IMG/VR virus record: IMGVR_UViG_3300032117_000058
Location: 1-43,137 of that record
From: a virus
Reading direction: 5' to 3' (one strand)
DNA length: 43,137 bases
Positions 10,977-43,137 of the stretch are shown in pieces. Positions within the stretch are counted from its first letter, which is position 1. Each line of letters opens with the position of its first letter. A program made the position numbers and the translations under genes. Below the pieces are notes generated by a model, which did no database searches, was not told the origin of the DNA, and was given only the letters and a program-made list of their open reading frames with translations.

Positions 10977-11611
10977 TATTCATACCATCCTAATTTGTAA
11001 TTTGGTGCGGTACTATTCCAGCTCAATGCTGTTGGTGTAGGTAATCCATTTTGAAATTTATTCATTAAATTACCCAAAACTTGTTGAGCACCTTGTTGCG
11101 TTATCAATGGCTGAGTGAAATCCCATTGATACAAAAATTGAACCTGTTTATCGCTTGATGTACTTACATCACGAATACCTGTTAGTAAGCAATTTGTGTA
11201 AGTGTAAGCAGGTGTTAAAACTGTAAATGTTCCACCTGTCAAAATGTGCGTGTCCAATTGGCTTTTTAAAGCTGTAAAAATTGAATTTTTAGTAACATAA
11301 CCACCATTGTTTTGTGCGGGAGCTATCATTACCAAACTAATTTTTAAAGGCATTTGAATGACCGCATTAGCCGCCATTGTTAGGCTTGCAAAAGGATATT
11401 CAGCAATTTGCCATTCTTCAAGACTACCGCCAGACATAACTCTATATTCGGCAAAGTATTGCCCTGTACTGCTAAACGAATTGCTCAGTTGTTCAGTTAA
11501 ATTGACAATAGGCAAAATATTATTTGGATAATTTGCGGCTATTCCATTATTCAAAATAATGGGAGAAATTTCATAATTGTATGAAAAATTAACTTGAGCT
11601 GAACTTAACAT
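10976..11611 (-). CDS. baseplate / tail-tube-hub connector, hypothetical (211 aa)
   Basis: This gene sits between the tape measure and the plug, where Mu-like and Pam3-like phages encode a tube-initiator or hub-adaptor protein. Recognisable pieces are LEEWQIAEYPFASLTMAANAV (hydrophobic, helical) and TPAYTYTNCLLTGIRDVS, followed by KQVQFLYQWDFTQPLI. The last two recall the 'Y-N--L-G--------------QW---F--PL' pattern of baseplate adaptor proteins in this region. The start has AAAGGGTCGTA-ATG. The function is inferred from order. Confidence 0.6.
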   Translation of the reverse strand: MLSSAQVNFSYNYEISPIILNNGIAANYPNNILPIVNLTEQLSNSFSSTGQYFAEYRVMSGGSLEEWQIAEYPFASLTMAANAVIQMPLKISLVMIAPAQNNGGYVTKNSIFTALKSQLDTHILTGGTFTVLTPAYTYTNCLLTGIRDVSTSSDKQVQFLYQWDFTQPLITQQGAQQVLGNLMNKFQNGLPTPTALSWNSTAPNYKLGWYE

Positions 11612-13155
11612 TACGACCCTTTACTGGCATTGGGTAGACTTGCGGCAGTCGCAACAGCATTTCCACCGGTGTTATTGTTAATCATAACTTTAATTTCATT
11701 GGCTGAATATTTGGATTTTCCGCTTTCAACCTTAGAAATTACCGCCAACAATGAAGACAAAACATTTGGATCTTGTAAATTTAAATGCTCAGTTGCTTTA
11801 CGTCCGGTTTGTTGCTCAACAGCTCTAATGTAGGCTTTGGTGTCGTTTTCATTTTTAGGCGCATAAAGACTAATAATGTCTTGAATGGTATCTAATTTTT
11901 TGTACCCTGCGGCCTTTGATTTTCCAGTTGCATATAAAGTCAACTGTTCCGCCAAGGCTTTAAAACCTTCTCTGTCAGATGCAAATTTTGCAAAACCACC
12001 CTCACCTTGGGTTGCTCCTGCTTGTCCAACATAGCGAAGATTTCCGGGGTTAAAGTTTCTTTCAGCTAAAGATTCACCACCAAAAAACTGTCGAACAGCT
12101 CCTTTGGTACGTTCCCATTTTTGAGTACCTTCTTTTTCTTCTTTTGTTTGCGTTAGACCAAAAAATCCGGTAATGTTTTCAACAATGGTAGCCATGCCTT
12201 TTAGGGCATCTAAAAAATAACTAATATCTTCTTTTAATTCATCGACTTTTAAATTAGTCAAAAAATCCTTGACCATTTCACCAACGGCTGATGAAAATTC
12301 AATTAATTTAGGAATTAATGGCTCTAAATTTTTTATTAACGATGTTTCTAATACTTGACCAACTTTTTTCAATTGAACTAAAAAATCTTGCCATTCACGA
12401 TTAACAGCATCAGTAGTTTCTAATTCTTTTGCATCTTTTTGATTTTTAGCAATTGCTTGATCTAATTCTTCTGCTTTTAAAGACGATAGCCGTCTTAAAT
12501 CTTCAAGGCTAAATATTTGAGTTAACCCTGTGGCTTCAGCATATTGTTGAGTTTGTCCACCGGCTTTAAATTGAGCAACAGCACCTTTAATGATGCTTGG
12601 CAACATATCAATTGGGTTTTGACCTGCTTGGCCACCCAATCTGCCTAAAATTGATTGTCGGCTTAAATCGCTTCTAACATCAGCAATATTTGACAATACT
12701 TGTGTTGGATCAAAATAACGACCAAAGTTTGTTTCTGTAGCTCTTAGTTGACCAGTAGAAACGCCCAAACCCTGCGCTTGCCTTCTGTAATCACTAGCAC
12801 TACCTGCAACTCCTGCCAAGCCAAAACCGCCACCAATAGCGCCCAATGTAGCCCATTTAGCGATGGATACTGCGCCACTAGCAAGATTGCGAGCAATGTT
12901 GGCTGTTGTATAACTTAATTCTTTAAAAACAACTAAATTGTCCTTTGATATTTTTTCAAAGTTTTTTAGTTGAGTGACTAGATCTTTAACGCCCTTGATT
13001 TGAGCGTCTACCTGTTTGGTCATTTTTTGTGACCAAGGCAAAGGGTCTATTTTCTTTAAGCCTTCAACGGACGATCTAAATTTGGCAAAGTCTTTCGCAA
13101 ACGCTTGAAACTTTTCATCTAATACATCTATTTCAATAACTGATTTGGTTGCCAT
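11611..13155 (-). CDS. tape measure protein with C-terminal muralytic domain (514 aa)
   Basis: The N-terminal 100 residues are charged coiled-coil helix (Lys, Gln and Glu rich). A Gly/Ala-rich hydrophobic stretch follows at ~100-120, then more long helices to ~350. Residues ~365-478 form a distinct domain: ERNFNPGNLRY, FASDREGFKALAEQLTLYA, TIQDIISLYAPKNENDT and YIRAVEQQTG. This is the lysozyme-like pattern found in PRD1 P5-type annotations and many virion lysins. E365 is the likely catalytic acid. The protein would set tail length and open peptidoglycan on injection. The gene lies directly after the frameshifted chaperone, as expected. It is short for a tape measure, implying a modest tail. 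Confidence 0.82.
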   Translation of the reverse strand: MATKSVIEIDVLDEKFQAFAKDFAKFRSSVEGLKKIDPLPWSQKMTKQVDAQIKGVKDLVTQLKNFEKISKDNLVVFKELSYTTANIARNLASGAVSIAKWATLGAIGGGFGLAGVAGSASDYRRQAQGLGVSTGQLRATETNFGRYFDPTQVLSNIADVRSDLSRQSILGRLGGQAGQNPIDMLPSIIKGAVAQFKAGGQTQQYAEATGLTQIFSLEDLRRLSSLKAEELDQAIAKNQKDAKELETTDAVNREWQDFLVQLKKVGQVLETSLIKNLEPLIPKLIEFSSAVGEMVKDFLTNLKVDELKEDISYFLDALKGMATIVENITGFFGLTQTKEEKEGTQKWERTKGAVRQFFGGESLAERNFNPGNLRYVGQAGATQGEGGFAKFASDREGFKALAEQLTLYATGKSKAAGYKKLDTIQDIISLYAPKNENDTKAYIRAVEQQTGRKATEHLNLQDPNVLSSLLAVISKVESGKSKYSANEIKVMINNNTGGNAVATAASLPNASKGS

Positions 13156-13164
13156 TATTTACTC

Positions 13165-13871
13165 TTAGAAGATTGATTTTTTTTCAATTGCTTGGATTAA
13201 ATGCCTTTGACGATAATGTTGTGCATCTATCCACTTACCGCCATTTTCTTTTATAAACTCATAAAAACCCTCATTGCTTAAATAGTCTAGGAGATAAGCG
13301 ATGATTCCGTTACTTTCTTTCCAGTAACATCTGTTTTGGTCAATGTCGGCAAACCAGTTTGATACGCCATACAGTCCAAGGATGTAACTACCCAATGCCG
13401 TAAATTCCCCGCCATTTCTAAAAAAGAAACTCTGAAGTCCCTTGGAGCGACCTTGGATATTGCAGTAAAAAAAACGAGAGAACTCATTACCTCCGCTTCT
13501 TCATCTTCGTCAATGATTCCACGTTTAATTGCCAAATCAAATGGCAATGTCTCCCACCCTTTTTCACCACAATAAATGACGTTAGTCAATCTAATGATTT
13601 CATTGATTAAACCAAACTTAACTCCACTTGGGCCGTCCCATGTGCCAGACTGAGTTGCAATTGATTTCAATGAAGGATAAGCAAGCCTTGGTGCGGATAA
13701 GGCAACATGGCTTGGATTATCACTTTCAAAACATTGACTAAAGACTTTTCCAAGCTCTAGATAAAATTGTTCAAAAATCTCACGACTAACAGCGGTTGAG
13801 TGAATGTGTACTGTTCCGTAGTCTGTCGTTTGAATTTGCACCACTAAATTCAAATTTTTGTTAATTTTCAA
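13165..13871 (-). CDS. frameshifted tail-assembly chaperone (gpGT-like fusion, ~235 aa)
   Basis: Translation of the 194-aa frame to the slippery heptamer at 13425-13419, followed by a -1 slip, enters an open frame that runs to the stop at 13165. The product has 151 residues from frame 0 and 84 from frame -1. There is no stop between the slippery site and the -1 frame, whose sequence (SNWFADIDQNRCYWKE, then IIAYLLDYLS) looks like real protein. Position immediately before the tape measure is diagnostic of lambda gpG/gpGT-type chaperones, which hold the tape measure in solution until the tube polymerises. The frameshift itself is inferred. Confidence 0.75.
13287..13871 (-). CDS. tail-assembly chaperone, unshifted form (gpG-like, 194 aa)
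   Basis: The only plausible start is a TTG at 13871, preceded seven bases earlier by a strong AGGAG. The helical, acidic protein (FEQFYLELGKVFSQCFE, VIYCGEKGWETLPFDLAIKRGIIDEDEEAEVMSSL) lies between the tube and tape measure genes, the classical chaperone position. Its C-terminal 43 residues overlap the -1 frame. In known systems the short form is made in large excess over the fusion. Apart from the gene order and slippery site I do not recognise the sequence family. Confidence 0.75.
   Translation of the reverse strand: MKINKNLNLVVQIQTTDYGTVHIHSTAVSREIFEQFYLELGKVFSQCFESDNPSHVALSAPRLAYPSLKSIATQSGTWDGPSGVKFGLINEIIRLTNVIYCGEKGWETLPFDLAIKRGIIDEDEEAEVMSSLVFFTAISKVAPRDFRVSFLEMAGNLRHWVVTSLDCMAYQTGLPTLTKTDVTGKKVTESSLIS
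13419..13425 (-). promoter_or_regulatory. programmed -1 ribosomal frameshift site, T TTT TTA
   Basis: In the frame of the 194-aa chaperone the codons are TCT-TTT-TTA, which gives the canonical X XXY YYZ heptamer T TTT TTA (the same heptamer used by HIV-1 gag-pol). It lies where the downstream -1 frame is open. No strong stem-loop is obvious just after it. Confidence 0.75.
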
Positions 13872-14330: not shown

Positions 14331-15650
14331 TTATGTTGGGATATTACTTGCTGTCAAGTAAATAGTGATTGAGGAGAATCCACGTTGGGGGACAAACGTC
14401 AAACTCAATCCCTTGTAAATACCTGCGGCATAATCGCTAGGATTCTGTGTCACATAAGTATTGAATGGAATTGCACCAACAGACGCAGGACTTAAAATCA
14501 ATCCAAAAGCAATACCATTGTTTGTAGTCGCTTGAGCAACTTTTTGCAATGCATTGATACCGGCTTGATTGTAATAAAGCGGATTAGTGGATGAATTGCT
14601 TCCATTAATGATTGCGGCGGCTAAACTAATTGCCACATTGATTGCAAGCCAATCAACTGCATACCAATAATTGAATGTGTTCAAATCCATGAACGTACCA
14701 CCCTCAATCAAAGTTTGACTGATTTGGCCTTGAGCACCTGTGTAAATGTAATTTACACCTGCGGCAAGCAATGAGGTTTGTTGTGAATTTGTTAATGTGC
14801 TGTATGGAGTAACACCATAAACAAAACTATATTCAAGAGGACTTGCCAAGTTACTTGCGTTGGGATCGTAACTTAATGTAGTCCAGAAAATAGCGGCGGC
14901 ATCAAATTCAGTAACTGGTGCAGTTGGCGTTTGAAGCGTTGCAAAAACTGATTTAAGACCTGCCCATGTTGTATAGGTTGCAAGCGTTGTTGTAACATAG
15001 AAATATGTTTGAGCTGTAGTGCTTGTGTACTGATTAGCCATTGTGACGGCTGTTGGTTCAGTATTCCAAGTTTGAGGCAACAAATAACTATAGAACTTAA
15101 ATGTCGATGTTGTAATAAACGATTCAAGAGCTGTTACACCTGCGGCTGGCGTTCCAACACCTAATTCCAATACATAAACTGGAGTAGTAGCGCCTTGAGC
15201 AAAGAATGTTGTTCCCATTGCCAAAAGTTCTTGAGAGTCTTCCAAAGAAAACAAACTCGTTGAAACAATTGTTGCACTTCCGGGATTGCTTGCAAGAGCG
15301 TAAGTTAAAGTATATGTACCAGTTGAAGTTACGCTAAAAGTTCCGTTGTAAGCATTATTTGTGCTACCTGAAACTAAAACGCCTGAGACAATACCTTCAA
15401 TTACGTTTCCAGTTGGGATTCCGTGAGCTGTAGAGGTGGTAACGGTTACAACAGAGGATGCCCAAGAAACACTACTAATTGCATTACCTGATTTTAAAAT
15501 TGTGGTCAAATCAGATAATTGAGTTAGCAGTTGATATGTACCTGTCGATAAGGTTGTTGCACCTTGAGATACAAAAGCACCTGTTTGTTGCAACTTTGAT
15601 GGCGCACTCGCCACCTGTTGCTTAACGATGACATTTACAATATTAGGCAT
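14331..15650 (-). CDS. contractile tail sheath protein (439 aa)
   Basis: The overall layout fits the DUF3383/Mu-type sheath family. It starts NIVNVIVKQQVASAPSKLQQ, then comes a beta region, a central ALESFI and SYLLPQTW core, and a C-terminal YVTQNPSDYAAGIYKGLSLTFVPQRGFSSI, matching the 'Y----P-DYA-G-Y-G----ytp--GF--i' pattern of these sheaths. Residues ~58-131 (VTVTTSTAHGIPTG, YNGTFSV, YTLTY) look like an inserted FCCH-like beta domain, related in pattern to the one in the J-like protein. The sheath shortens to drive the tube through the envelope. Ribosome binding site AAGGAGGCATC-ATG. Confidence 0.87.
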   Translation of the reverse strand: MPNIVNVIVKQQVASAPSKLQQTGAFVSQGATTLSTGTYQLLTQLSDLTTILKSGNAISSVSWASSVVTVTTSTAHGIPTGNVIEGIVSGVLVSGSTNNAYNGTFSVTSTGTYTLTYALASNPGSATIVSTSLFSLEDSQELLAMGTTFFAQGATTPVYVLELGVGTPAAGVTALESFITTSTFKFYSYLLPQTWNTEPTAVTMANQYTSTTAQTYFYVTTTLATYTTWAGLKSVFATLQTPTAPVTEFDAAAIFWTTLSYDPNASNLASPLEYSFVYGVTPYSTLTNSQQTSLLAAGVNYIYTGAQGQISQTLIEGGTFMDLNTFNYWYAVDWLAINVAISLAAAIINGSNSSTNPLYYNQAGINALQKVAQATTNNGIAFGLILSPASVGAIPFNTYVTQNPSDYAAGIYKGLSLTFVPQRGFSSITIYLTASNIPT

Positions 15651-20558: not shown

Positions 20559-22673
20559 TTAGCGTTGATTGTTAGCGGTGTGAAACTGAGTAGCTCTCAT
20601 TGGAGGTACTTTGAAGTCATCAAGCCAAGCACTCATAGAACCACGGTATTTAGTGATTGTACGACCGCTAGAGTCTCTTGATTGAATAGCAATCAACTGA
20701 TCGCCAGAAACATGACTAGATGTTTTTGCGGCAGTCATTGCGTCGTTGATAATTTGTTTTTCAGCTAAGTCAAGCAATTTAGCATCTTTGATTGATGCCA
20801 AATTAATGTCTTTGAAGCTGTCGGAATAGGCTTGAAGACCACGCAACAGACGTTTACGATAAGCCATCAAACTTTCACCTTGTAATGGGCGTGAAGCTGA
20901 TTTACCAAAAGCGGCTAAAACTGAATCACACTTAGCTTGCATATCTGCATACTCAGCGGCTTCTTCGTCTTTTTTCATAGCCATTTCGTCATCATCGTCC
21001 ATTTTGGCATCGTCATCATCAGGTTTTATTTCGCCTGCTGGTCCATGCTCAACAGGATTTGAACCCATGTAATCTTTACGTTTCATGGAATCGTCATTAT
21101 CTTTACGATGTCTTTTCATATCATCGTCGTCATCTTTCATTTCCATTTCATCGTCATCTTTGCGCTTTTTATCAGCTTTTTTCATGACGTGCTTGGGAGA
21201 TTCCATATTTTTTTCTTCCAAGTCTTCATCATCCATGCGCATATCGTCATCGTCTTTGCGCTTTTTGTCAGCGGCAGTAACGAGTGGAGGTGCGGGAAGG
21301 TTTTTTTCCATCTCATCAACTCTCACGCTAATGCTATTGAGAGCCGAAAGAATGGCATCTAGTTTATCGCCTTGAGCATCTGCTTTCGGCTCTACTTTAT
21401 TTTCTGACATATCAGATACCTCATTGTTAGTTAATAAAACGCCTTTGGGTTCGCCACCCTTGTCCCATACTCCTTTAGAACCTCTAGCTTCAGTAACGAT
21501 AGCTATATGATCTAAAAGAAATGGTACACCTTCGATTAAGAGTGGCTCTCCATTCTCAGTCGTAAGTGTAGTGTTGCCTGCCGTTTGGTCAAAAACGACA
21601 GATGGGCTAGTGCTAACTTCTTGCGATAAGATCGTATTGACTGCGTCTTGATCGTAAATTTTAGCAATACCCCAAACCTCATCACCTTTGATATAAGGCA
21701 GAATAATACTTCCAACTGCCCTATCTTTAAATTCTTTAGAGGTTAAAACTGCTGACTCAGGATGATCCATCACAACAATTAAACCGTTACATCTTTTTAA
21801 AAACTCATCGTTTAAGTAAATACTAGAATCACGCCAAACGTGTTCTCCTATACTTGAACGATATGCTAAACCTGTTCCAGTTATTCTAATCGCCAATAAC
21901 ATGACGTTAGCATACATTTGAGGACTTGGCAATAAATCACATTTAACTAATTCAGCATAGTCAAATTCTGTTTTAGCCAAAGCAATTTTAAATGCTATAT
22001 CAAGACCTGGGTGTAATGGCAATGGAGGACGATCAGGACTGCACCAATCGTAGCCAGTAGATTCGTAATTAAGAACAACATTTTCTTTTTTAACGTTTTT
22101 TGCAACATAAGTGCAAAATTGACCATCGTCATGAAGTACTTCTAATGGACCTGTGTAATCAATTCCAGTTTCTTCTTTACATTCACGTCGTGCGGTTTCT
22201 TCAAGTGTTTCTCCATTTGGCAATTGATGTCCGCCCGGAACACACCAAGTATTTGGAAAATCCCCACCACCTGATCCTCTACGAATCAATAATGTTTCGC
22301 CTTCAGGTGTAAGAAACATAATTCCTGAAGCTCTACCAAATGGACCGCCTTGATTGTCTATTGGCATTGCATCAGATTTAACTTCACCAAATCTAGGTAC
22401 TACTTCGTCGGCTTTTAAACCAACAATTGATCTACTTAATTCTGCTAATTTAGCAGACAATCCTTGAAGTTTTTTTTGAACAGAAGCAGTATCCCAATCA
22501 GGTTCACTACTATCAGTTTTTTCAGTAGGTAAAGCTAATAATGAAGGTGCTTCTAATGTATCTTGAGTAAATTCTTTGCCAACAGATTGCGGTATTCCTA
22601 CTTTTTTAGCGAAAGCAGGATTGTGAGCAACAGCTCGCATTAGCTTCTCTTGTTTTTCAGATACTGCTGGCAT
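20559..22673 (-). CDS. head morphogenesis protein with Nudix and DUF2213 protease-like domains (704 aa)
   Basis: Domains in order: residues 1-35 (PAVSEKQEKLMRAVAHNP), a DUF3008-like opening; ~110-230, a Nudix hydrolase with box GGHQLPNGETLEETARRE then CKEETGI (one residue longer than the usual G-x5-E spacing); ~265-405, a DUF2213-type region (IGEHVWRDSSIYL, VVMDHPES, STSPSVVF) which in phages is linked to prohead protease/scaffold function; ~465-575, an Asp/Lys/Met-rich, very charged region that may act as scaffold; ~590-704, a helical C-terminus. It lies between MuF-like and cement genes, where protease/scaffold genes sit. No Shine-Dalgarno is evident, so translation is probably coupled. A Nudix domain in such a protein is unusual. 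Confidence 0.8.
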   Translation of the reverse strand: MPAVSEKQEKLMRAVAHNPAFAKKVGIPQSVGKEFTQDTLEAPSLLALPTEKTDSSEPDWDTASVQKKLQGLSAKLAELSRSIVGLKADEVVPRFGEVKSDAMPIDNQGGPFGRASGIMFLTPEGETLLIRRGSGGGDFPNTWCVPGGHQLPNGETLEETARRECKEETGIDYTGPLEVLHDDGQFCTYVAKNVKKENVVLNYESTGYDWCSPDRPPLPLHPGLDIAFKIALAKTEFDYAELVKCDLLPSPQMYANVMLLAIRITGTGLAYRSSIGEHVWRDSSIYLNDEFLKRCNGLIVVMDHPESAVLTSKEFKDRAVGSIILPYIKGDEVWGIAKIYDQDAVNTILSQEVSTSPSVVFDQTAGNTTLTTENGEPLLIEGVPFLLDHIAIVTEARGSKGVWDKGGEPKGVLLTNNEVSDMSENKVEPKADAQGDKLDAILSALNSISVRVDEMEKNLPAPPLVTAADKKRKDDDDMRMDDEDLEEKNMESPKHVMKKADKKRKDDDEMEMKDDDDDMKRHRKDNDDSMKRKDYMGSNPVEHGPAGEIKPDDDDAKMDDDDEMAMKKDEEAAEYADMQAKCDSVLAAFGKSASRPLQGESLMAYRKRLLRGLQAYSDSFKDINLASIKDAKLLDLAEKQIINDAMTAAKTSSHVSGDQLIAIQSRDSSGRTITKYRGSMSAWLDDFKVPPMRATQFHTANNQR

Positions 22674-40221: not shown

Positions 40222-40997
40222 CTAAAGATGAAGCATTACAACTTGCCTTGGATTCAATGAAAGAAATCATACATTGGTATGCTGTTCGTGATAGAAATGA
40301 TGTTTTTTTAAATTTTGTTGACCAGAATCCTGAAATACAAAAAATAATGAAATCCATCACCGCCATTAAAGAAACACTAGAAACAAAAGAAGGACTATTA
40401 GACAGAAAATCTTATTTGCTTGGTTTATACGATCAAAAATCTAGGTTAGAACTAGAAACAAAAGATGAGCCTGTGTCGGATAAATTAGAACGTTTGCTAT
40501 GGGAGTTTATTGACTTAAAAGCCATGCATCCAAATCACAATCCTGATCCAAGAACATGGCCTCATGTTTTTGCATATGCTCCAAAGCCAAACCATCTTGT
40601 TGCATGGGGCATGGAAAAGGACGGTGTTATCCTTGATGTAATCTGCCCTGCCGAACATGAGCGTGAAGAAGGTAGTTATACAGTACCTCTTTACACCTCA
40701 CCACAAATAAAAACAAAAGATGAGCCTGTGGCATTGGTAGCAGAAGTTCACATAAGTCGCTATACCATTGAATGGACAAATGGACCACTGCCACAAGGTA
40801 CAAAGCTCTACACCACACCACAACGCACATTTGTAGGATTGACAGATGAAGACATGAATAAGGCTTTAGATTATTGGTCTGACGATTCTCGAAGTGCATA
40901 TGGTGGTGCTCATAGTGCATCAGGTGAATATGTAGACATGATTGAAACATGGCGTTACATCGAAGCCATGCTGAAAGAAAAAAATAATTATGCGTAA
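40218..40997 (+). CDS. modular hypothetical protein (259 aa)
   Basis: The ATG at 40218 has AAGGA six bases upstream and an ATGA overlap. It begins TKDEALQLALDSMKEIIHWY, then has modules separated by TKDEPV (two copies, from a 20-nt exact DNA repeat) and endings VPLYTSPQ and KLYTTPQ. This patchwork is typical of long modular phage 'DEALKLALEAL' proteins with swapped segments. Its C-terminus overlaps the end of the endolysin gene on the other strand by 10 bp. Function unknown. Confidence 0.65.
   Translation: MTKDEALQLALDSMKEIIHWYAVRDRNDVFLNFVDQNPEIQKIMKSITAIKETLETKEGLLDRKSYLLGLYDQKSRLELETKDEPVSDKLERLLWEFIDLKAMHPNHNPDPRTWPHVFAYAPKPNHLVAWGMEKDGVILDVICPAEHEREEGSYTVPLYTSPQIKTKDEPVALVAEVHISRYTIEWTNGPLPQGTKLYTTPQRTFVGLTDEDMNKALDYWSDDSRSAYGGAHSASGEYVDMIETWRYIEAMLKEKNNYA
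40456..40475 (+). repeat. 20-bp exact direct repeat, copy 1 (copy 2 at 40711-40730)
   Basis: A 20-base stretch containing AAAGATGAGCCTGTG is identical at 40456-40475 and 40711-40730, both within the 259-aa gene and in frame, coding for TKDEPV. It marks the borders of duplicated or swapped modules. Confidence 0.7.
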
Positions 40998-41416
40998 GGT
41001 CTTGTGCCTGTCTTATCAATGATAAGAGCTTGTCTTCTAGGTTTACCATTAGGATCATTAGGAACGCTGATATGTGTCCAACGATCAAATTCACGAATTA
41101 CTTGGTCAAATGGTAAATCACTTTTAATGATTGTTTGAACAACTTGATCCGGTGTCATTCCGGGAATTCTTAGGTCAGCCGCACACCCTACACGATGTTG
41201 AGATGTGTCTTTTGAACCAACAGCATCATTCACGGCCTTACTGCGAAATGCAGAATTAACCATTACTGGTTTGTTATCCAACAGTTTTTTAACGTCTTCA
41301 AGAAATGTAGCCAAACGCAAAAGATTGGCTTTTTCTGATTCATTGGGAGTATTGTCAAATTCACGATGTTCTGTGATTGTCAATTCTTCAATTGTAAAGT
41401 GTTCTGTGAGATTCAT
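40988..41416 (-). CDS. M15-type endolysin, D-Ala-D-Ala carboxypeptidase fold (142 aa)
   Basis: The whole protein is a Peptidase_M15_3 domain: FTIEELTITEHREFDNTP, VMVNSAFRSKAVNDAVG, then TSQHRVGCAADL (H74, D81) and DRWTHISV (H115), giving the zinc triad His-Asp-His. It would cut peptidoglycan peptide bridges at the end of infection. It has no signal sequence, so it needs the holin encoded directly upstream. Its 3' end overlaps the convergent plus-strand gene by 10 bp. Confidence 0.92.
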   Translation of the reverse strand: MNLTEHFTIEELTITEHREFDNTPNESEKANLLRLATFLEDVKKLLDNKPVMVNSAFRSKAVNDAVGSKDTSQHRVGCAADLRIPGMTPDQVVQTIIKSDLPFDQVIREFDRWTHISVPNDPNGKPRRQALIIDKTGTRPYA

Positions 41417-41913
41417 TATTTTGCGGGTGTTGATTGGTGAAGAAGAATGTCTTTGTTTTGGCTTGATGCAGAGCTACCAAAATAAAAAGCGATGATACCT
41501 GTCCAAGCTGTTCCAAGAGATCCAAGCATAATCATTAGAGCTTGACTTGATGAATCAACTTTTCCGGTCATAAGACCACCAAGTATTCCAAAAAATCCAA
41601 CTGTGATAAGAATAGCAAGCAAAGGCGGTATAAAACTTTTAGTGTTTGATTGCATATCCCTAGCTGATTTGCGATCTTGTACGGCTAGTTGCTCAAAGTC
41701 TAATCCCAATTCTTGAGCTTTTGCTTTCAATGCAAGTTCAGCAGATTGAATGCCAGCTATTTGGTCGGCGGTGAGCTTTCCAGAGTTAATGGTGTCTTGA
41801 ACAGCACTAGGATCAACGCCTATTGCTTTGGATACGGCTTCTACTGCCATGCCCGCCAATGGGCCTCCTAATGCGCTTGCGATGGTAGGGGCGATTGATT
41901 CGATCCAACTCAT
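41416..41913 (-). CDS. 3TM-type holin-like protein (165 aa)
   Basis: The ATG at 41913 has GGAGG seven bases upstream and an ATGA overlap with the -1 frame of the upstream gene. N-terminal IESIAPTIASALGGPLAGMAVEAVSKAIG is amphipathic. FIPPLLAILITVGFFGILGGLM and LMIMLGSLGTAWTGIIAFYF are membrane helices. This matches the GTA_holin_3TM family. It would permeabilise the inner membrane for the endolysin, whose start it overlaps. Confidence 0.82.
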   Translation of the reverse strand: MSWIESIAPTIASALGGPLAGMAVEAVSKAIGVDPSAVQDTINSGKLTADQIAGIQSAELALKAKAQELGLDFEQLAVQDRKSARDMQSNTKSFIPPLLAILITVGFFGILGGLMTGKVDSSSQALMIMLGSLGTAWTGIIAFYFGSSASSQNKDILLHQSTPAK

Positions 41914-42484
41914 TTTGTATCCTCCAAATGATATTTGCTCTTTTGATAATCTTGATGTACCCAATACATTAAACCGGCTATTTCCAATGTTATCAAAAAC
42001 ACGGCAATAATGACGATTGCTCTAACTTGATACTTTTCAATAATTGCTCTACGTTTCCTAAGAGCTTCTTGTGCGGCTTTTTTGCCTCTCGCTCAGCGGC
42101 CTCCTGCTCCTTTCTGAGCTTTGCCCTTTCTTGTTCAAACTCTGTCCAAATCGCTCCCCAACCGGGCGTTTGGTAGATCAAAAAGTCTTTTAATTCTCTT
42201 TCCGATTCCTGCAATTGACGCAATTTCATAATATTGTCAAATGCACGTTTGTTCAGGCTTTCCCCTCTAGCAGGAGGTTTTTTCTTTGATTCTTCAACAG
42301 CTACAGCCATTGCCTCGCTGTGTTCCATAAAAGCACCAATGTGCCCTGTAACTTCAGCAGTAATTTCAGCTACATCACCGCCAACTTCTTTGGCTTCTTT
42401 GTACAGTTCTACGCATCTTTTGACCCCTGCTATTGCTCCTTGAGCCAACGAAAATGCGGCTGAAATGGAGATAGGATCAAGCAT
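41910..42484 (-). CDS. membrane-anchored form of the lysis protein made by -1 frameshift (~191 aa)
   Basis: If ribosomes slip at 42083-42077 the protein keeps its first 136 residues and continues for 55 more: a basic helix (QEALRKRRAIIEKYQVRA), a transmembrane segment (IVIIAVFLITLEIAGLMYW) and a short tail ending EDTK. The -1 frame has no start codon of its own and begins just after a stop, yet it stops with an ATGA overlapping the holin start. Homologous-looking proteins in other phages have one continuous frame with a C-terminal membrane helix. The alternative is a sequencing error in the A6 run. Confidence 0.65.
41993..42484 (-). CDS. lysis-module protein, unshifted soluble form (163 aa)
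   Basis: Starts MLDPISISAAFSLAQGAIAG, then a charged helical protein with VELYKEAKEVGGDVAEITAEV and a Glu/Arg/Ala-rich coiled coil (TEFEQERAKLRKEQEAAE). Without slippage it ends in LLKSIKLEQSSLLPCF and lacks a membrane helix. It lies between the 61-aa membrane peptide and the holin. The 'DPIs--aAf--aq-avag-k---elyke' opening recalls a widespread family encoded beside holins in aquatic phages. Confidence 0.7.
   Translation of the reverse strand: MLDPISISAAFSLAQGAIAGVKRCVELYKEAKEVGGDVAEITAEVTGHIGAFMEHSEAMAVAVEESKKKPPARGESLNKRAFDNIMKLRQLQESERELKDFLIYQTPGWGAIWTEFEQERAKLRKEQEAAEREAKKPHKKLLGNVEQLLKSIKLEQSSLLPCF
42077..42083 (-). promoter_or_regulatory. canonical -1 frameshift heptamer A AAA AAG
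   Basis: The frame reads GCA-AAA-AAG, which is the X XXY YYZ heptamer A AAA AAG (as in E. coli dnaX). An AGGAGG lies 16 bases upstream, which could act as a stimulatory internal Shine-Dalgarno. A weak GCTCT/AGAGC stem starts 11 bases downstream. Confidence 0.65.
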
Positions 42485-42485
42485 T

Positions 42486-42671
42486 TTATTTTCTCAAAAC
42501 TAACTCTAGCAGAAGTAAAATAATTGCGCCTGTTCCACCAATAAAGATGGTTTCCAAGCGTTTTAATCGAGCATTCACACCACGCATTTGCTGATCTATA
42601 CCCTCATACCGAACAGCACATACATCAACGTGAGAGTCGATTTTCTTATCCACGTCTGCTAGAGTAGTCAT
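42486..42671 (-). CDS. XhlA-like small lysis membrane protein (61 aa)
   Basis: ATG 42671 is selected because it lies next to the stop of the 74-aa gene. The longer frame would overlap that gene. Helical IDSHVDVCAVRYEGIDQQMRG and VNARLKRLETIFIG are followed by a membrane segment GAIILLLLELVL and ending RK. This layout (coiled coil then C-terminal membrane helix) is that of haemolysin XhlA-type holin partners. Confidence 0.65.
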   Translation of the reverse strand: MTTLADVDKKIDSHVDVCAVRYEGIDQQMRGVNARLKRLETIFIGGTGAIILLLLELVLRK

Positions 42672-42672
42672 T

Positions 42673-42897
42673 TTAAGCGGCAGGTGTTGCTTCGGCAGGA
42701 GCTTCAGCAGGTTGAGATGCGTTGGCGGCATCTTCCAAAGCCTTCATTTGTGCGCCTACAGCTTGTTGAAACATAATAACAAGCATAGCAGTCTCTGCCG
42801 ATGGTTTTGAAGCAATATAGCCCCAAACTTGGTTAACCAAACTGGCGGGGATTGTAATGGGTTGATTTTGAAAAATTTGTTCAGGTGTTAGCATCAT
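42673..42897 (-). CDS. hypothetical protein of the lysis region (74 aa)
   Basis: Two adjacent ATG codons lie after AAGGA. The second (42894) is better spaced. It begins LTPEQIFQNQPITIPASLVNQVWGYIASKP, has a helical middle and ends in an Ala/Pro/Glu-rich tail (QPAEAPAEATPAA). It sits between a fibre gene and the lysis cluster. Function unknown. Confidence 0.6.
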   Translation of the reverse strand: MMLTPEQIFQNQPITIPASLVNQVWGYIASKPSAETAMLVIMFQQAVGAQMKALEDAANASQPAEAPAEATPAA

Positions 42898-42934
42898 AGT
42901 TCCTTAAAATGGCGAAATTGCCATAACTATTATA

Positions 42935-43137
42935 TCAAGCAATGTTTGCGGCTTTCAAGCGTGCTCTGAGAGATTTAAGCTCTGCAATGATATTAGCCAT
43001 CATTTCGGGAGTAGACAAATCAACCATTTGATAAACTGGATCACCTTTTGAATCAACTGCATTGGCTTCACCAACTACAGCATTAGAAACTACAGCTTGA
43101 ACTTCATCTGCGATAAATCCTGTATCAGCTTGACCAG
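42935..43137 (-). CDS. 3' part of another tail fibre with S74 chaperone domain
   Basis: A minus-strand frame open from the right edge ends at 42935. Its translation contains GFIADEVQAVV, ANAVDSKGDPVYQMVDLS and a terminal LKSLRARLKAANIA. This is the C-terminal half of a peptidase S74 domain, which closes long phage fibres. The gene's start is outside the window, so this is a second S74 fibre besides the 1661-aa one. Confidence 0.85.
   Translation of the reverse strand, partial: GQADTGFIADEVQAVVSNAVVGEANAVDSKGDPVYQMVDLSTPEMMANIIAELKSLRARLKAANIA

Follow-up and report, generated by a model that had tools for sequence, protein, structure and literature searches.

A conserved and very probably programmed -1 frameshift that would supply the membrane anchor of a phage lysis-cassette protein

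The frameshift gene and its lysis neighbourhood

The window, by which we mean the whole stretch of 43,137 nucleotides analysed here (IMG/VR record IMGVR_UViG_3300032117_000058), carries on its minus strand a lysis cassette that comprises, in order, a small anchored protein, a gene with a -1 frameshift, a holin-like protein and an M15 endolysin. Its features, with the evidence for each, are as follows.

42929..42958, minus strand: promoter-like TTGAAA-18-TATAAT with extended -10, before the cassette (11 of 12 consensus matches only)
42486..42674, minus strand (shorter start assumed): upstream neighbour, small protein with one C-terminal membrane helix (weak phrog_38642 match)
42484..41910, minus strand: whole gene with -1 frameshift (zero frame plus -1 tail)
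42077..42484, minus strand: shared N-terminal domain, 136 aa through AAA AAG (AlphaFold, dN/dS)
42077..42083, minus strand: shift site A AAA AAG (phase and conservation)
41993..42076, minus strand: zero-frame extension of the soluble form, 27 codons plus stop (protein not conserved)
41910..42077, minus strand: -1-frame tail, 55 codons plus TGA, one membrane helix (dN/dS 0.12-0.18)
42045..42065 (approximate), minus strand: weak hairpin GCTCT..AGAGC, 11 nt 3' of the heptamer (folding)
41416..41913, minus strand: holin-like protein with two C-terminal hydrophobic stretches (phrog_1544; weak phrog_526 holin match)
40988..41416, minus strand: endolysin, peptidase M15 (PF08291, E 9.6e-18; phrog_894 endolysin)

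The zero-frame ORF (42484..41993) starts at an ATG and encodes a soluble protein of 163 amino acids. The heptamer A AAA AAG at 42083-42077 lies in slip phase, being read as GCA AAA AAG and followed by CC. Past the heptamer, the -1 frame reads AAQEALRKRRAIIEKYQVRAIVIIAVFLITLEIAGLMYWVHQDYQKSKYHLEDTK up to its stop codon, giving 55 amino acids with a single hydrophobic stretch, whose Kyte-Doolittle maximum is 2.45 (computed on locus L059, identical to the window). The TGA of this tail overlaps the ATG at 41913 (AAAATGAGT), and the peptide across the shift junction of the -1 product would be EREAKKAAQEALR. In L059, a stop codon 9 nt 5' of the heptamer bounds the tail frame, which contains no ATG, GTG or TTG ahead of the heptamer in any member, L059 included; translation of the tail from its own start was rejected on this ground. 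Tail codons 2-4 are start-like in about two-thirds of the sequences, not in the window. A previous sequence-only reading had described the soluble zero frame, the heptamer and a startless membrane tail that follows directly upon a stop and ends over the next ATG, and reading of the ORFs confirmed all of these elements. AAAAAAG occurs 33 times in the window, compared with 31.5 expected, so a lone heptamer is uninformative.

The downstream neighbour had been called a holin. We prefer the term holin-like: the protein belongs to phrog_1544, which carries no functional label, matches the holin phrog_526 weakly, has two hydrophobic stretches near its C terminus and is annotated as holin in MW202701. 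In relatives, the genes that follow vary within lysis functions and encode other holin-like proteins, phage lysozyme, an M15/VanY-type endolysin or an Rz-like spanin. Small C-terminally anchored proteins of varying sequence regularly precede the gene, as seen in the window and in L192, L220, L245 and L278.

Conservation of the split frame and selection across the site

We chose loci from a viral contig collection by protein similarity, disregarding the heptamer, and counted 105. In 103 of them, a single frame encodes the N-terminal domain, and the -1 frame encodes the membrane tail. An in-phase A AAA AAG is present in 90 loci, whereas 13 (L191-L203) have A9G at the same point, likewise leading into the -1 frame, and two (L294 and L295) have a continuous frame. 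Twelve loci with an additional upstream A run also have the in-phase site. There are near-copies among the 105 loci, and 68 distinct protein pairs are left without them. The retention of site, phase and tail protein across 103 of the 105 loci is what lifts the heptamer above chance. This comparison of the heptamer and both frames in relatives had been proposed as a check on programming, which came through it; continuous relatives, which had been named as contrary evidence, were found only as the two loci above and a sister family, and the other close relatives retain the site. The family is large: one scan yielded 185 confirmed matches to contigs. A scan of genome contigs returned no relative and hence no host link. 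In the group L030-L063, a second upstream frameshift was considered and rejected, as the ORFs there start at GTG or TTG. Apparent upstream local indels in L037 and L102 were judged to be assembly noise of single contigs.

Selection was assessed in 80 distinct DNA sequences that had been filtered on AAAAAAG, so that 103 of 105 remains the unbiased figure for conservation of the split. Our results show that selection switches frame at the shift site. In the last 35 codons before it, the zero frame has a dN/dS of 0.07; after it, the -1 frame has values of 0.18 over its first 26 codons and 0.12 beyond them, compared with 1.1 and 1.3 for the zero frame. Up to the site, most substitutions fall at third positions of the zero frame; past it, most fall at those of the -1 frame. 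The zero-frame extension ranges from 26 to 41 codons in length, and its sequence drifts. The Lys codons of the slip site are always AAA AAG in this filtered set, with invariant synonymous positions, although AAG makes up one-third of the Lys codons elsewhere in these genes; under independence, this corresponds to a log10 P of about -34, a value that is overstated, as the sequences are related and filtered. The locus thus has two hallmarks of a dnaX-type site, namely an in-phase X XXY YYZ between overlapping frames and selection in both of the frames that it joins.

The competing explanation put forward was an indel in the A run, introduced in assembly or sequencing, that would split one continuous gene, and both the homopolymer at the site and the continuous gene of distant relatives are what such an error would predict. 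However, the split is present in 80 distinct sequences drawn from many different IMG metagenomes, the window sequence recurs identically over the gene in another assembly, and the site is frozen while the zero-frame extension drifts freely. These observations exclude an indel for all practical purposes.

Stimulatory elements and the manner of the frame change

The heptamer is followed by CC in 59 of the 80 sequences, by CT in 18 and by CA in 3, and GCC accounts for 38 of 213 Ala codons (18%) elsewhere in the representatives. The review PMC5009743 reports that, of the dinucleotides following A AAA AAG, CC is the most prone to shifting. About 8-40 nt 3' of the site, the RNA of 35 representatives folds into a hairpin more stable than in synonymous-codon controls (-11.8 versus -6.9 kcal/mol; Wilcoxon p 2e-10, for representatives that share ancestry and are not independent). 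The mean z was about -1.4, compared with about 0 in most control regions, including those farther downstream; a second dip in stability lies about 50 nt upstream of the site. We relied on stability against synonymous controls because RNAalifold gave no consensus structure for the 3' region, in which the register drifts and the spacing varies. The hairpin of the window itself is weak (-8.8 versus -6.4 kcal/mol in controls, p 0.2), and most relatives have stronger ones at the same place.

Escherichia coli dnaX uses the same in-phase slip site, has a downstream hairpin and makes two products from one gene. It has a clear upstream Shine-Dalgarno element, whereas the sequence upstream of the phage site shows an invariant GAG with weak pairing energies and no strong element of this kind. 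The outcomes also differ, in that the dnaX shift truncates the protein and the shift in the window would extend it, adding a membrane helix.

In L191-L203, no hairpin signal follows the site (z about 0). A hairpin thus follows A AAA AAG but not A9, a contrast that suggests slippage by the ribosome in the A AAA AAG group and possibly by the polymerase in the A9 clade. The frame change might also arise in transcription, by slippage of RNA polymerase on the A run rather than of the ribosome. The runs of 6-7 A, and of 9 A without a hairpin in L191-L203, are compatible with this view, and Thermus thermophilus dnaX, a different gene that has the run of nine in common with L191-L203, relies on slippage of the polymerase at such a run (PMC5009743). 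In the main group, however, the in-phase A AAA AAG stays constant although the run length is 6 or 7, and slippage by the ribosome agrees with the hairpin in the RNA and with the CC that follows the heptamer, so we consider the polymerase an improbable agent.

Together, conservation, frame-switched selection and the hairpin signal of the group as a whole strongly support the proposal of the sequence-only reading that a programmed -1 shift gives an anchored form. From sequence comparison, we regard a conserved, programmed -1 frameshift yielding a membrane-anchored product as highly probable; slippage in cells, and its ratio, are inferred.

Predicted products and a possible role in lysis

AlphaFold predicted four helices in the N-terminal domain (residues 4-33, 39-66, 77-105 and 109-135; pLDDT 87), the fourth of which reaches the shift site. 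In the model of the continuous protein L295 (pTM 0.46), this fourth helix spans residues 105-185 and runs on through the membrane helix, which places the slip site inside the fourth helix. The predicted fold had no significant match among solved structures, matches in BFVD were uncharacterised proteins from uncultured phages only, and Pfam matches to the frameshift gene were insignificant. Ribosomes that stay in frame would make the soluble protein of 163 amino acids, consisting of the four-helix domain and a non-conserved end. Those that move back by one nucleotide at A AAA AAG would make a protein of 191 amino acids, in which the fourth helix is prolonged to form a stalk and then a single membrane helix near the C terminus. 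The basic residues ahead of the membrane helix would place the helical domain on the cytoplasmic side of the inner membrane.

In a large sister family (L108 and L111-L190), all full-length members encode this domain together with a C-terminal membrane helix as a single continuous frame. phrog_32327, to which no function is assigned, matches both frameshift and continuous proteins at the N-terminal domain, with profile E values of 6.3e-5 for the zero frame of the window, 2.5e-6 for the L046 type and 1.5e-7 for the continuous L108. phrog_32327 and the sister family (for example MW202701.1, 19243-19704) share with the frameshift gene the N-terminal domain, the C-terminal membrane helix and the lysis neighbourhood, and differ from it in having a single continuous frame. 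As the sister proteins encode the membrane tail in one frame, we take the anchored form to be the canonical product. The tree has two frameshift clades with continuous members between them, L294 and L295 being nearest to the clade of the window; its root and several forks are not fixed, so one and several gains or losses of the shift fit it equally.

L294 (2001-2690) and L295 (434-1123) have a C-terminal extension of about 40 residues past the membrane helix, which is missing in the frameshift members. In L087 (603-1055) and L096 (2039-2494), the position before the holin-like gene is taken by a continuous protein that seems to be a different one; it has a hydrophobic stretch at its C-terminal end and is possibly a functional substitute in that place.

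The place and architecture of the gene suggest, tentatively, a lysis-cassette accessory or regulator tuned by its soluble and anchored forms. The anchored form would act next to the holin-like protein at the membrane, and the soluble form would compete with it or dilute it, so that lysis would be tuned; held in a fixed ratio, the two might serve as a timing device, as had been imagined for this locus. A wider proposal, that widespread phages set the soluble/anchored ratio by slippage to regulate lysis and that one lineage swapped A AAA AAG and its hairpin for A9, possibly with polymerase slippage, without giving up either of the two products, is conceivable but somewhat unlikely as a whole.

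The shift could instead serve only to limit a potentially harmful membrane protein, the soluble product being a functionless by-product. The zero-frame extension, with its dN/dS of about 1.1, is without protein constraint, and sister phages produce the anchored form alone, as this explanation would have it. On the other hand, a weaker start site would be a simpler way to lower expression, and survival of the switch through the change from A AAA AAG to A9 suggests a role for the ratio or for both products. Neither objection is decisive, and a mere by-product strikes us as possible, if doubtful. The shift might also bring ribosomes to the next start and so couple expression of the holin-like gene to it, as has been proposed for the lysis gene of RNA phages; in 74 of the 80 sequences, the tail stop lies between -4 and +1 nt from the next ATG, whichever gene follows. 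A stop position alone, however, would not require the conservation of the tail protein, and the holin-like gene in the window has its own GGAGG, so coupling as the purpose of the shift seems distinctly unlikely.

Identity with an inner-membrane spanin subunit of the Rz type is very improbable. A helical protein with one membrane helix in a lysis cassette would suit such a role, but here the membrane helix is C-terminal, the helical domain is predicted to be cytoplasmic, and no match to an Rz profile was obtained. L206 and L211 have a separate Rz-like spanin gene downstream, and the frameshift protein, with its one membrane helix, has a separate holin-like gene alongside. The presence of these separate spanins and holin-like genes indicates that the frameshift gene is probably neither spanin nor holin. 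A tail assembly chaperone of the G/GT kind was also considered and rejected. G/GT is likewise a phage gene with a conserved -1 extension, but it sits before the tape measure and serves tail assembly, whereas the present gene adjoins the holin-like and endolysin genes.

The elements of the proposed arrangement are familiar: -1 frameshifting on A AAA AAG is known, as are pairs of soluble and membrane forms. In E. coli, frameshifting in copA yields a membrane pump and a putative soluble copper chaperone (PMC5009743). By -1 frameshifting, copA gives a soluble and a membrane form from one gene, as the phage gene would; in copA, however, the shift makes the soluble form, whereas here it would make the membrane form, and the proteins are unrelated. 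The phage frameshifts in the passages of PMC5009743 covered here serve tails, coats and similar parts. The openly licensed literature that was searched yielded neither a frameshifted membrane protein of lysis or adjacent to a holin nor a conserved frameshift by which a lysis-cassette protein gains its membrane anchor, an absence that is no proof of novelty. Since the family is large, has continuous relatives that can serve as natural controls and seems to have exchanged its slip site in nature, the reason for two products and the evolution of recoding become directly testable. A gene caller without a frameshift model would annotate the soluble product alone.

Elsewhere in the window, region 13165-13871 has the arrangement of a tail chaperone, with an ORF at 13871..13287 (minus strand), an in-phase T TTT TTA at 13425-13419 within it and an overlapping -1 frame that ends at 13165. 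A tape-measure-like gene (11611-13155) follows directly, and this region is probably the usual G/GT frameshift. The gene at 20559-22673 (minus strand), beside head genes, encodes a protein of 704 amino acids with matches resembling a NUDIX hydrolase and a head maturation protease. A tail sheath gene lies at 14331-15650; therefore, the phage has a contractile tail.
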